64,000 bases of DNA, taken from contig CALYQL010000013.1 of assembly GCA_945285915.1 (NCBI GenBank), forward strand, positions 1 through 64,000. Direction: 5' to 3'. This stretch comes from an uncultured Bartonella sp. (GTDB lineage Bacteria > Pseudomonadota > Alphaproteobacteria > Rhizobiales > Rhizobiaceae). Both the position numbers and the translations under genes were made by a program. The notes below the pieces were generated by a model that made no database searches, was not told where the DNA came from, and saw nothing but the letters and a program-made list of their open reading frames with translations. Below are positions 20,750 through 26,631 of the stretch, piece by piece (position 1 is the first letter of the stretch; the number at the start of each line of letters is the position of its first letter).

Positions 20750-20878
20750 AGCTCATCTCAAGAGGACGTCTCCTCCCATTGCGTTTCTTGAGTGTTCCCC
20801 TCTGGAGGTTTTATCAGATTGACTTTAGTCTCTGAATACCTTCAAACTTTAGCCGGACATTTGTCCGGCTTTTTTTTT
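20750..20878 (+). ncRNA. abcR: AbcR-type trans-acting small RNA (alpha-r15 family)
   Basis: About 125 nt; the 5' end is approximate. First hairpin: CTCAAGA (20757-20763) pairs with TCTTGAG (20786-20792) and presents the loop CGTCTCCTCCCATTGCG. It is followed by a single-stranded stretch GTTCCCCTCTGG and then a strong intrinsic terminator. Both pyrimidine stretches are anti-Shine-Dalgarno sequences, the hallmark of AbcR sRNAs, which bind Hfq and repress many ABC-transporter mRNAs. The location between an LsrB/VtlR-type gene and an aspartate aminotransferase is the known abcR locus in rhizobia. No protein is supported here. Confidence 0.82.
20851..20878 (+). terminator. Intrinsic terminator of the AbcR-type sRNA
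   Basis: Eight-bp stem AGCCGGAC / GTCCGGCT with a four-base loop and eight or more Ts directly after. This is the Hfq-dependent sRNA type of terminator. Confidence 0.9.
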
Positions 20879-22609: not shown

Positions 22610-23044
22610 TTACTGTTGTTTATCAATCCGTTCATAAATGGCATCAAAGCGTTTTTTGGCGACACCAGGCTGTTTGTGATCTCTATAGGACTGTGGCAAA
22701 GAAGCATCGCCAACTTTTACCAGCATTATCATGCCCATGGCATAATGGGGAATGCATTTAATGCCGTAATAGCCGGTCTTATCGAATTTTACTTCCAATT
22801 CTTCATCAATTTTACCTTTGAAAGGCGTTGCGCCTTCCGGAATCATATCATCAATACTTGCAGCATTATGACTTTTCTGTGTGGCAATAAACTTAATACT
22901 ATCACCTGGTTTTATAGCGAGAAAATCAGGCTCGAAAACCATACTTCCAGAGGTTCCCCTATTAAGCATTTTTACTTCATAGGTTTCTGCATGAGCTAAT
23001 GGAATAAATGAAATCATAAATAATAACGCTAAAAATTTTTTCAT
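22610..23044 (-). CDS. Pseudoazurin (blue copper protein)
   Basis: 144 aa with a signal peptide (MKKFLALLFMISFIPLAHA). Type 1 copper ligands are complete: His59 (KSHNA), Cys97, His100 and Met105 in GIKCIPHYAMGM, with pseudoazurin spacing. It is a periplasmic one-electron carrier; in denitrifiers it donates to nitrite or nitrous oxide reductase. No such reductase is seen in the window. Its ATG overlaps the TGA of the upstream ABC ATPase (ATGA), so it is the last, translationally coupled gene of the cobalamin-riboswitch operon. A cupredoxin there is unexpected. The partner is unknown. Confidence 0.93.
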   Translation of the reverse strand: MKKFLALLFMISFIPLAHAETYEVKMLNRGTSGSMVFEPDFLAIKPGDSIKFIATQKSHNAASIDDMIPEGATPFKGKIDEELEVKFDKTGYYGIKCIPHYAMGMIMLVKVGDASLPQSYRDHKQPGVAKKRFDAIYERIDKQQ

Positions 23045-23826
23045 TTTTTATTATCCTCTTTAAGTAAACATGATGGTCTGTAATGTATTGATATAATACC
23101 ATCATCATAATCGGTAATCATTGCCTTTGCATGAAAGATTTTTTCAATTAATTGGCTCGTCAACACGTCTTTTGGTGTTCCTATCGTGACAATTTGACCT
23201 TTATTGAGAACAACAATTCTATCACAAAACATTGCCGCGTGGTTAAGGTCATGCAAGGCGATCATTGTGGTCAGGCCAAGATTACGGACAAGACCAAGAA
23301 TTTCCAATTGATGTCCAATATCCAAATGATTTGTCGGCTCGTCGAGAATAAGCGTTTGTGGTTCTTGTGCAAGCGCTCGTGCGATATGGATACGTTGTTT
23401 TTCACCACCCGACAGGCTGTTCCATAATCGGTTTTCAAAACCAGACAAATTGACTTTCTGTAAGGCATCTTTAAGTGTTTGTTCGTCTTGATCCGACCAT
23501 AAAGAAAATAGTTTTTTATGGGGGAGGCGGCCAATTTCTATTGCATGGTACACCGTGATGTTTTCATAGGTGTCGCTTTGTTGATCGACGTAAGCAATGA
23601 TCTTCGCCAATTGACGCCTTTTAATTTGTGAAAAGGGGGTCCCGTTAAATTCCACCGTGCCCGTTGTTGGCTCTACAAGACCAGCGAAGATTGAAAGTAG
23701 GGAGCTTTTACCAGCACCATTGGGGCCGATAATGCCTAAAACTTCATTATCATTGAGCTGTAACGAGACATCTTTAATGATTGTATGGCCATTTACTTCC
23801 AAATGCAGGTTTGAGCCGCTAATCAC
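23041..23826 (-). CDS. ABC transporter ATP-binding protein, cobalamin/iron-complex type
   Basis: 261 aa single NBD. Walker A GPNGAGKSSLL near residues 34-44, signature LSGGEKQR, Walker B LILDEPTNHLD and H-loop IALHDLNHA all intact. FecE/BtuD-like. Start ATG overlaps the TGA of the permease gene (ATGA). It energises the importer encoded with 23823 and 24848. The upstream cobalamin riboswitch makes corrinoid (or cobalt) the most likely substrate; siderophore or haem are alternatives for this family in general. Confidence 0.92.
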   Translation of the reverse strand: MISGSNLHLEVNGHTIIKDVSLQLNDNEVLGIIGPNGAGKSSLLSIFAGLVEPTTGTVEFNGTPFSQIKRRQLAKIIAYVDQQSDTYENITVYHAIEIGRLPHKKLFSLWSDQDEQTLKDALQKVNLSGFENRLWNSLSGGEKQRIHIARALAQEPQTLILDEPTNHLDIGHQLEILGLVRNLGLTTMIALHDLNHAAMFCDRIVVLNKGQIVTIGTPKDVLTSQLIEKIFHAKAMITDYDDGIISIHYRPSCLLKEDNKK

Positions 23827-24848
23827 GATGAATGACCTTTCTGTCTTAGCAGCAAAACTGCAAATATTGGTGCGCCAATCAAAGCGGTAACAATACCAAC
23901 CGGAAAAACTATTCCAGGAATAATGATACGAGAGATAATATCCGCAGCAATGAGAAATAAAGCCCCCATTAAGGCTGAAGCGGGAATGAGTCTTTGATGT
24001 TTTATTCCAACAATTAATCGGGCAGCGTGAGGCACAACAAGGCCAACAAAACTTATTGTCCCCATGATGGAAACCATAACAGCTGTTAGCAGTGCAACTG
24101 TGGTTATCAATATTATGCTGGTATATTTAACCGATATTCCCAATGATTTTGCCGAACGAGAACCGAAGACAAAAGCGTCGAGAACACGCGAAAAACTCAA
24201 AAATATCAAAAAGGCCAAAACAGTTATTGGAAAAGCCAGAGAAGCGTCACTCCATCTTGCGCCGGATAAATTGCCAATCATCCATGAAAATATATTGGCT
24301 CTTCCTTCAAGAGGGGTGAATATCATTAGGATCAAAGCGGATAGGGCGTTAAATAACATAGCACTTGCGATACCTGCCAGAATAATGGCGGTAGTATTTC
24401 GGCCAGAATAATAAGCAAGAAGGATTACAAACAGAAATGACAAAAGCCCACCGAATAAGGCGCCAGTTGATAGTGATAGAACACCAACGCTAAAGCCGAA
24501 TGCTACAATCATAGCTGCACCTGCTCCAGCTCCCGACGATATTCCTAAAAGATAAGGCTCCGCTAATGGATTGCGTAACAAAGCTTGTAGGGCAACCCCA
24601 CACATTGCAAGACCTGCTCCACAACAGGCACCAACGACAGCACGTGGGATGCGCCACAGCCAGATGACACGGCTGTTGAAAATATCAATATCATATCCCG
24701 CATGCCAAAGCTGATTGGCAATTGTTTTTAGAAAGTCGGAAAACGGAATAGGGGTTTCACCAATTGCCGCACCAGCAACAATTGCTGCTAGCAACACAAA
24801 TATTGCTAGCAGAAAAATGCAAATGGTGCGGCATACTTTAGCAGACAC
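23823..24848 (-). CDS. FecCD/BtuC-type ABC transporter permease
   Basis: 341 aa with about ten membrane helices. FecCD family sequence runs through LWRIPRAVVGACCGAGLAMCGVALQALLRNPLAEPYLLGISSGA region, and GTISFVGLVVPHAARLIVG is the cytoplasmic coupling loop. The start is a GTG overlapping the TAG of the binding-protein gene by one base. It forms the membrane pore of the BtuCDF-like importer. Cobalamin is inferred from the riboswitch 1.5 kb upstream in the same transcript. Confidence 0.92.
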   Translation of the reverse strand: MSAKVCRTICIFLLAIFVLLAAIVAGAAIGETPIPFSDFLKTIANQLWHAGYDIDIFNSRVIWLWRIPRAVVGACCGAGLAMCGVALQALLRNPLAEPYLLGISSGAGAGAAMIVAFGFSVGVLSLSTGALFGGLLSFLFVILLAYYSGRNTTAIILAGIASAMLFNALSALILMIFTPLEGRANIFSWMIGNLSGARWSDASLAFPITVLAFLIFLSFSRVLDAFVFGSRSAKSLGISVKYTSIILITTVALLTAVMVSIMGTISFVGLVVPHAARLIVGIKHQRLIPASALMGALFLIAADIISRIIIPGIVFPVGIVTALIGAPIFAVLLLRQKGHSS

Positions 24849-25882
24849 TATTTATCCAACCCAAGTTTGACAATTGCATCTGCCAGCGTTTCAATGCCGT
24901 CGATTGTTCGCATAGTGGTATTCATGGATTGGACATCCATCACGACAAGTCGATTATTTTCCACCGCAGGCAATAATTTGGTAACGGGGTCATTTTTCAA
25001 ATATTGTTCTTTTATCGCGACGTCATCGGCAGGAAAACGGCGTCTATCCATTTTTGCCAACACAATAATTGTAGGATTTTTCTTGACGATTGTTTCCCAG
25101 CCAACTGTCGGCCATTCGTAATTTGATTCAATAATGTTATTAATACCAAGAATGTTCATGATATAACCCGGAGCACCAAGATTGCCGGCAACATAGGGGT
25201 CTATATCCAAATCGGCACTTGAATACCAGAAAACTGCACTAATCTTGCCTTTTGGCAAACGTTGCACTTTTTCAATAGCGGCGTGTTCTCTATCTTTCAG
25301 TTCCTGAACAAGCTTTTTTCCGCGGTCTGGCACGTTGAAAATGACCGATAGTTCTGTAATCTCCTGATAGATCATGTCCATTGTAAACGGCTTACTGCGT
25401 AAACCATCACTTCCGGCCATATTGTCTTTCCCAACGCAATCTGCGGGTGCAGTATATACGGGAATACCAAATTCGTTGAATTGGTCATAGGTTGCAGAGC
25501 TACCTGCCGGTCCTATTACCCATTCTTGATGGCTTGCAACAAGATCAGGCTTTTCAGCAATTATACTTTCAAAGCTTGGTACATCGTGTGAAAGCACCTT
25601 GACTGTTTTGTTAACAGCCGAAAATTGTAGCAATACATCTGAATACCACAATGCCGTTCCCTTTACCTTGTCTGCCAAACCAAGTGCATACAATATTTCT
25701 GTTGTGTTTTGTCCAACAGAAACAACGCGCGTTGGTGCTTTTGTAAAGGTAATGTCGCGACCGCAATTTTTTAATGTTAACGGGTAACGTGTTTCTTCTG
25801 CTGTGACCGATTGTAAGGCGACAAAAGAAAAGCAAATAGCGATAAATGCGTTGGCAATAAGCTTGGATTTTTTCATAGTCAT
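24848..25882 (-). CDS. Periplasmic binding protein of cobalamin-type ABC importer
   Basis: 344 aa, signal peptide to about residue 28 (MTMKKSKLIANAFIAICFSFVALQSVTAEE; a second ATG is two codons in). Class III periplasmic binding fold: RVVSVGQNTTEILYALGLADKVKGTALWY in the N-lobe, a long helix, and LPAVENNRLVVMD near the end. Related proteins bind corrinoids, siderophores or haem. It is the first conventional gene after the riboswitch. The spacing before its ATG lacks a strong ribosome binding site, so its translation may depend on the preceding small ORF, which ends about 100 bases upstream. Substrate is inferred. Confidence 0.88.
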   Translation of the reverse strand: MTMKKSKLIANAFIAICFSFVALQSVTAEETRYPLTLKNCGRDITFTKAPTRVVSVGQNTTEILYALGLADKVKGTALWYSDVLLQFSAVNKTVKVLSHDVPSFESIIAEKPDLVASHQEWVIGPAGSSATYDQFNEFGIPVYTAPADCVGKDNMAGSDGLRSKPFTMDMIYQEITELSVIFNVPDRGKKLVQELKDREHAAIEKVQRLPKGKISAVFWYSSADLDIDPYVAGNLGAPGYIMNILGINNIIESNYEWPTVGWETIVKKNPTIIVLAKMDRRRFPADDVAIKEQYLKNDPVTKLLPAVENNRLVVMDVQSMNTTMRTIDGIETLADAIVKLGLDK

Positions 25883-25983
25883 TATTTCAAACTTCTATAT
25901 TGAGATGCAATTGTCTTATGCGCACAAGGGCCGCCTAAAAAGACCATTGCATATTTCAGGAAATCTTATGATCTTTTGGGAAA

Positions 25984-26232
25984 TCAGATTGAATTATCTT
26001 GATTGTGCTTAAGGACTTGGCTGTTTTGCACATTGAAAACTGTCAAATCACCGGTTTGCGAATTGCAAACCAAAAAGTTAGTGTTTTGCGAATTGCAAAC
26101 CGAAAAATTAAAGTTTTGCGGATTGCAAACCAAGAAATCAATGTTTTGCGGATTGCAAAACAATAGATCACTATATTCCAAACATAATTGAAGTTTGTTT
26201 GCGCCATTTCGGGCAAATGTAGAATTCTGCAT
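25984..26232 (-). CDS. Small repeat protein ORF in riboswitch leader
   Basis: 82 codons from ATG 26232, preceded by AGGAG with seven bases spacing, one of the better ribosome binding sites in the region (a GTG at 26253 is an alternative). It lies directly downstream of the cobalamin riboswitch aptamer, so that RNA should control it first. Residues ~27-72 are five near-repeats of ten residues with consensus F-L-V-C-N-(P/S)-Q-N-x-(N/D). No signal peptide or membrane helix. Not recognised from any family. The coding repeats coincide with 30-bp DNA repeats that each contain a dyad, so it could equally be a regulatory leader rather than a functional protein. Confidence 0.45.
   Translation of the reverse strand: MQNSTFARNGANKLQLCLEYSDLLFCNPQNIDFLVCNPQNFNFSVCNSQNTNFLVCNSQTGDLTVFNVQNSQVLKHNQDNSI
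26021..26170. repeat. Five 30-bp tandem repeats with internal dyads
   Basis: Exact 30-base period: the TTTGC core begins at 26025, 26055, 26085, 26115 and 26145. Each unit holds an inverted repeat; the best is GGTTTGCGAATTGCAAACC at 26053-26071. The outer copies are degenerate (first and last). As RNA each would form a hairpin; as DNA, thirty bases is close to three helical turns, so the dyads face the same side. Located in the transcribed leader of the cobalamin-type operon. Confidence 0.9.
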
Positions 26233-26282
26233 TAATAATCTCCTCGCACCCACCGTGCTTTAGGTTTCTTTCTAACAAGGGC

Positions 26283-26470
26283 GTTTCCCTTTTTTGACGG
26301 CAGGTCTCCTGGCTCGCGATAAACACACCATCATCAACCTTCCCATGAAATATAGTGGCTTGGGCTTTTGCCCGTAGATGTGGTGCTAGCGCCTACAGTT
26401 GCGGGGGCAGCCACGGATAAAACTCCGATAAGGGTCAGTTTTCCCGTGTTCCCTATTATTCCTCTTAAGA
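26283..26470 (-). ncRNA. Cobalamin (B12) riboswitch
   Basis: On the minus strand, in order: GGGAACACGGGAAAACTGA, then GGCTGCCCCCGCAACTGTA, then AGCCACTA, GGGAAGG, and the B12 box GAGCCAGGAGACCTGCC (26296-26312). These are the conserved elements of the adenosylcobalamin aptamer in the correct order and spacing. The expression platform follows at about 26230-26285, with AAGGG/CCCTT and GCAC/GTGC pairings close to the AGGAG of the small ORF. This suggests translational control, with repression by cobalamin. It controls the minus-strand importer operon. Confidence 0.95.
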
Positions 26471-26631
26471 GACATCTTAAGATGGAACCGTCTAGCGATA
26501 TTTATAGGCAATTTCACGCCGATATCAAGCGGTGTTCAAGACGAGGAAATATTTTATGTGAACTGAAAGAAAGGAATGGCAATATGCTGAGCGACAAATG
26601 GCAATATGTTGACCGAAAATTTATGCCATAG
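26471..26631. other. Promoter region of riboswitch operon
   Basis: About 160 bases between the riboswitch and the csp terminator. The operon promoter should be here. I cannot assign it by eye. Confidence 0.4.

Follow-up and report, generated by a model that had tools for sequence, protein, structure and literature searches.

In the minus strand of a bee-gut Bartonella contig, a cobalamin riboswitch is separated from the importer operon that follows it by a small open reading frame, which raises the question of what this frame does between the two. In ordinary RF00174 members the SD that is masked is that of the regulated gene, whereas here the first start codon behind the riboswitch belongs to a content-poor upstream ORF (uORF). 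The locus lies in a stretch of 64,000 nucleotides (the window), in which the minus-strand order is cobalamin riboswitch, P13 hairpin, AGGAG, 82-codon ORF and BtuF-like importer operon. The closest named records to the host are uncultured Bartonella MAGs with 97-98% protein identity, with B. apihabitans, B. choladocola and B. apis next closest at 78-81%. A first-pass annotation of the DNA had suggested that the small ORF may either act as a translated leader relaying the riboswitch signal or encode a Cys/Asn-rich repeat peptide.

The aptamer (26282..26507, on the minus strand like all features of the locus) scored 88.7 bits in cmscan against a cut-off of 31.5, aligning over the full RF00174 model (positions 1-189 of 189). 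Within it CCCGC at 26401..26405, in a context that is CTGCCCCCGCAACTGT in all 38 leaders compared, is the L5 half of a proposed kissing loop, as by-eye complementarity indicates that it can pair with GUGGG in L13. The expression platform contains the P13 hairpin GCAC-GGTGG-GTGC (GCACGGTGGGTGC, 26246..26258) and, just 5′ of it, CCU at 26262..26264, a proposed anti-SD1 that pairs in the MFE fold with AGG of the uORF SD. This SD (SD1, AGGAG, 26240..26244) stands 7 nt before the ATG (26232) of the uORF, which runs for 82 codons and a stop (25984..26232). SD1 lies within an extended P13 in the MFE folds of 8/14 Bartonella leaders, the window included, and of 21/27 other Rhizobiaceae, with 6/14 Bartonella folds lacking such masking; in one Bartonella genome (G063) a CUC:GAG pairing takes the place of the CCU:AGG of the window. 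On these predicted folds the masking of SD1 by the extended P13 is plausible.

The placement of the small ORF and the strengths of the two ribosome binding sites proved to be as first annotated, with SD1 binding the anti-SD at -8.4 kcal/mol and the importer RBS GAAGTTTG (SD2, 25888..25895) at -0.4 kcal/mol, and the lack of a known family was likewise borne out by searches of the uORF against Pfam (best E 0.12) and NCBIfam, neither of which gave a match. SD2 is followed by genes for a BtuF-like periplasmic binding protein (24848..25882; Pfam PF01497, Peripla_BP_2, E 6.9e-36), a FecCD/BtuC-type permease (23823..24848; PF01032, E 9.7e-82) and an ABC ATPase (23041..23826; PF00005, E 5.7e-38). The first product is BtuF-like by Pfam but falls below every NCBIfam cut-off, its highest scores there being to models of siderophore EitA and F420-0 transporters, and we infer a cobalamin-related cargo from the riboswitch upstream. 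Related operons can carry tandem binding-protein genes, two or three per operon, as in L108 (G096) and L033/L034 (G063).

The middle of the window uORF, between a cbiM-like start and its end, is occupied at 26052..26171 by tandem repeats in frame, whose 30-nt units are each near-palindromic (GGTTTGCaattcGCAAACC). TRF reported a 30-nt unit at 26055-26163 (3.6 copies, 87% matches, score 155), while a separate repeat search found in-register copies over 26022-26171. The repeat core TTTGCGNATTGCAAA was considered as a genome-wide element and rejected, as it had 9 genome matches at no more than one mismatch, 4 of them inside the array, while the reversed control gave 3. For the single window ORF the open frame alone is modest evidence, as 35/1000 dinucleotide shuffles also stay open. 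There is also no conserved run of one regulatory codon of the kind expected of an amino-acid attenuator, with the Cys/Asn repeats absent from 11/14 relatives.

Comparison across the genus separates the frame from its repeats. The binding protein and the riboswitch co-occur in the same 14/71 Bartonella genomes, and in all 14 loci an SD and an ATG frame stand behind GCACGGTGGGTG, counting G063, in which the uORF ATG reads in frame into the binding protein to give a product of 377 aa. Repeats are present in three of the 14, namely the window (82 codons), G060 (72 codons, one unit fewer) and G059 (82 codons), whose repeat number differs by whole 30-nt units; the repeats are recent. A further genome, G058, has a uORF of 124 codons and nine repeat-free Bartonella have uORFs of 147-165 codons. 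The distance from uORF stop to importer ATG is 13-17 nt in nine of the 14 and reaches 131 nt in G058; in the window it is 101 nt, and in its group 101-102 nt. Since 3/14 carry the repeats and 14/14 the frame, the repeats, unlike the frame, are a local feature. The first-pass annotation had counted the absence of repeats in relatives against its proposal, and this absence, seen in 11/14, tells against a function of the Cys/Asn repeats while leaving the ORF itself untouched.

The first-pass annotation had also proposed a check of related genomes for codon-level conservation (synonymous excess). In seven alignable genomes of the B. apis group, in which the uORF was compared with the importer gene, the pooled pN/pS was 0.90 for the uORF and 0.09 for the importer gene, with uORF changes distributed over codon positions 1, 2 and 3 as 41, 50 and 52. 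Nevertheless, no in-frame stop was seen in any of the seven uORFs, although at least 143 changes separate them and some 6.5 nonsense changes would be expected (P ~0.0016). This group has two indels in the stretch from P13 to the importer ATG, of 3 and 15 nt and both in frame, whereas the indels of the 287 nt upstream measure 1-2 nt, with two of these falling at the edge of the alignment. Among dinucleotide shuffles of the nine ORFs of 147-165 codons only 1-6/1000 stay open, compared with 9/1000 for G058 and 35-49/1000 for the window group. One observation runs counter to this: reading the uORF alignment (L024-L032) in frame +2 gave a pN/pS of 0.53, below that of frame 0, despite many stops. 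The B. apis group keeps the frame and not the amino acids, and the sequence comparisons suggest that across a bacterial family translation as such, and not its product, is under selection.

That the pattern extends to the family is indicated by other Rhizobiaceae leaders. Relatives of the binding protein were matched in 72/247 family genomes, from which 27 loci outside Bartonella and outside the sister genus g27 were taken as the best-scoring rather than as a random sample. All 27 have RF00174 and a P13-type hairpin with an SD and then an ATG or GTG behind it, and a separate uORF of 20-45 codons is present in 24/27, the exceptions being L097 (in frame into the binding protein), L106 (an overlapping ORF) and L101 (5 codons). 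The starts of uORF and importer were picked by rule, with L100 and L104 re-picked where the first-choice ATG was too near the SD. As chance alone often leaves ORFs of this length open (323-925/1000 shuffles among 23 scored), the outgroup argument rests on position and SD and not on length. The finding that uORFs are a habit of the family led to a simple story of cbiM decay, with Bartonella as one arm, being dropped, and since uORFs are common across the family their origin and their function are kept apart here.

In the outgroups, uORF codons co-vary with the importer SD. The pairing tests left out L033 (a fusion), L097 (in frame), L101 (5-codon ORF) and L106 (overlapping ORF). Outgroup uORF segments UUUCUCCCG, UUUCCCC and GUAUUUCCC face the SDs CGGGAGAAA, GGGGAAA and GGGAAAUAU, respectively, and over 24 outgroups the matched uORF-SD2 pairs exceeded permuted pairs by two measures (0/5000); because related species are not independent, neither this nor the permutation counts that follow are strict probabilities. 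When windows were scanned along the message, the two over the SD gave z -4.22 (0/2000) and -2.68 (16/2000), while eight windows off the SD gave no signal (z -0.56 to +1.47); with six near-duplicates removed the remaining 18 rows gave z -3.90 (0/2000). Shuffled uORFs hide SD2 less well than native ones in 21/24 outgroups (Wilcoxon p 6.6e-6) and in 9/13 Bartonella (p 0.027). Removal of the upstream sequence raised SD2 accessibility in 18/24 outgroups and 11/13 Bartonella, the shuffled-uORF test being preferred because any shortening should raise accessibility.

Within single leaders the predicted pairing varies. The partner of the importer SD in L024 is uORF nucleotides +356 to +376, at a probability of 0.85-1.00 over most positions, in L031 the SD pairs with other partners (p ~0.8), and the SD2 of the window pairs mainly with the early codons of the importer gene itself (p ~0.48; 0.87 in G060). 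Duplex scores of single leaders had a mean z of -0.83 in the 24 outgroups and -1.50 in Bartonella, falling in the best 5% of shuffles in 4/24 outgroups, and RNAalifold on the outgroup leader alignment returned P13 and no uORF-SD2 helix. The window uORF does contain CAAACTTC (26190..26197), an exact 8-nt complement of the importer RBS GAAGTTTG. This pairing was rejected as a mechanism and is not claimed for the window, because the duplex ranked 31/200 among shuffles and the fold places the RBS in another helix.

Taken with the SD-ATG frame in 14/14 Bartonella and the separate uORF in 24/27 outgroups, the leader role first suggested for the small ORF gains ground, and we consider it probable that the ORF is a translated relay whose RBS is masked by the riboswitch, with importer expression needing passage of ribosomes through the uORF. 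When cobalamin binds, the L5-L13 kissing loop would hold P13 in place and CCU:AGG would extend it, so that SD1 is masked and ribosomes are kept out of the uORF, while without cobalamin SD1 would be free and the uORF would be translated. Expression of the importer genes, which have a start site that is either weak or sequestered in the fold, would depend on this passage of ribosomes. Across most of the Rhizobiaceae leaders examined, and strongly in the B. apis group, uORF codons are predicted to pair with the importer SD and therefore a translating ribosome would open it. For the last step in the window lineage the candidates would be release of the SD, protection from Rho and reinitiation, the last of which would be hard because the uORF stop lies 101 nt upstream of the importer ATG. 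Translation of the uORF, its response to B12 and the dependence of the importer on it are inferred, and the best reading is that the frame matters and the peptide sequence does not, with the repeat peptide a mere by-product of the need to keep the frame open. Such a relay would explain how the importer gene affords a weak start site.

The start of the Bartonella uORF points to where the frame may have come from. The exact hairpin-SD-ATG pattern of the window was found in 14/394 family genomes, three of them Bartonella, and in the other 11, whose leaders have the same 13-mer hairpin, the ATG each time begins a CbiM-like protein. Two of these proteins were confirmed by Pfam (PF01891, E 1.4e-16 and 6e-15), with ten others 61-97% identical to the first. 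In the sister genus g27 the operon runs from the riboswitch through cbiM and three binding-protein genes to the permease and the ATPase, while CbiM is absent from 71/71 Bartonella genomes. The 33 nt after the uORF ATG have a mean identity to cbiM starts of 0.41-0.55 in Bartonella compared with 0.25-0.31 in the outgroups, and 8/13 Bartonella starts exceed the null maximum of 0.518 set by 1902 control ATG 33-mers from related loci; the window start has a mean identity of 0.45, with 10/1902 null 33-mers reaching 0.449. In an aptamer tree, from which 5/11 cbiM aptamers were left out for want of an anchor, the 14 Bartonella aptamers join those of g27 cbiM with support of 92/93, short of the level that the tool marks with a star, in a fork that also holds the long-branch outgroup row L097 and with a long-branch warning from the tool, and four other cbiM aptamers were placed elsewhere. 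It is likely that the bee-gut Bartonella uORF goes back to the start of a cbiM gene that stood between riboswitch and importer genes and was later lost from the operon. The uORF as a CbiM relic beyond its start was rejected, with no similarity to CbiM past the first codons (hhalign probability 0.2%) and no Pfam match for four uORFs of relatives. A broader proposal, that the family has a two-stage B12 switch in which a content-poor uORF with anti-SD codons co-evolves with the importer SD, and in which Bartonella made a relay of a dead cbiM under frame-only selection that tolerated in-frame growth of repeats, is tentative and falls a little short of even confidence.

Other explanations of the open frame fare less well. 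That the uORF encodes a functional Cys/Asn-repeat peptide would suit its good SD and the in-frame change of the repeats in G060, but is extremely improbable given that the repeats are confined to three relatives, that amino acids in the B. apis group are near neutral, that no family matches and that even the three repeat-bearing genomes differ per pair by 0-2 synonymous as against 5-13 nonsynonymous changes. The repeats could instead be DNA operators or RNA hairpins with the open frame incidental, a reading in keeping with the near-palindromic unit and with a leader more stably folded than shuffles (z -2.64); the 30-nt period and frame conservation, the keeping of the frame in the 11 relatives without repeats and the failure of the pattern to spread through the genome make this very improbable as well.

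A functionless, decaying cbiM remnant, open only because its decay is recent, would account for the cbiM-like start, for the loss of cbiM from the whole genus and for the riboswitch-cbiM-importer operon of the sister genus. It is improbable nonetheless, as the stops expected from the changes in the seven B. apis-group sequences are missing and several separate lineages are still open, while the lack of CbiM similarity outside the start makes the decay old. Transcription polarity, in which the sole role of uORF translation is to protect the nascent leader from Rho and no pairing with SD2 is needed, is unlikely but of some weight. It is the best fit to the window lineage, whose uORF ends 101 nt before the importer, and would agree with gaps of 101-131 nt in 4/14 Bartonella and with the way in which long uORFs of 72-165 codons stay open although their amino acids are near neutral; Rho-linked uORFs behind M. 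tuberculosis riboswitches are described in two reports (PMC12810186, PMC11260477). Polarity leaves unexplained the SD2-specific co-variation in the outgroups.

By analogy, the nearest precedent for such a relay is uPPE2 of M. tuberculosis, where a B12-riboswitch-gated uORF is needed for PPE2 expression, in an arrangement that the authors call a relay (PMC11260477). The likeness to ppe2/uPPE2 lies in a B12 riboswitch upstream of an SD-bearing uORF, with the control proposed in the present case, and a uORF with its own SD directly behind the riboswitch platform was found in 14/14 Bartonella. In uPPE2, termination-reinitiation occurs at an AUGA stop/start overlap behind a class IIb riboswitch (PMC11260477), whereas in 13/14 Bartonella the uORF stop lies 13-131 nt upstream of the importer ATG, outgroup uORF codons co-vary with SD2 and the Bartonella uORF start resembles the lost cbiM. 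As the window has a gap of 101 nt and no stop/start overlap, its uORF is relay-like yet not a member of the uPPE2 type. Another Rhizobiaceae riboswitch acting on translation at a distance is the S. meliloti metA SAM-II riboswitch, with a masked SD that controls translation from AUG2, 74 nt downstream, but there AUG1 and AUG2 are in frame, the ligand is different and a terminator lies between (PMC9373788). That in-frame layout occurs here only in G063 (Bartonella) and L097 (outgroup). In Salmonella, translation of a small ORF promotes that of a Mg2+ transporter with folded ribosome-binding sites, but the ORF is intergenic and the passages at hand do not show a B12 riboswitch (PMC8092293). The searched passages of an S. 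meliloti small-proteome report do not mention cobalamin or B12 (PMC10117765), and searches of one open-access library brought up no description of this leader for Rhizobiaceae or Bartonella. A small ORF behind a riboswitch is readily passed over or entered as a hypothetical protein; a decayed first gene of an operon offers a possible route to the origin of such uORFs, and co-variation between uORF codons and the RBS of the next gene is testable.

Several other features were observed in these genomes. A 22-nt direct repeat (AATGGCAATATG...) at 26575-26618 closely precedes the riboswitch and may belong to the promoter region. A second riboswitch type, AdoCbl RF01482, is present elsewhere in genomes of the window group (L062 (G000:C54), L060 and L061), scoring 60.6 bits in the window's own genome. 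Bartonella nrdHIEF leaders stand behind another cobalamin riboswitch and show by eye a GGAAG-ATG mini-ORF of ~9-11 codons (e.g. MSKILNHFS) before nrdH in L035, L039, L041, L042, L050, L052, L057 and L058, with none seen by eye in leader L059. The window also contains an alphaproteobacterial ar15 sRNA at 20755-20877 (59 bits).
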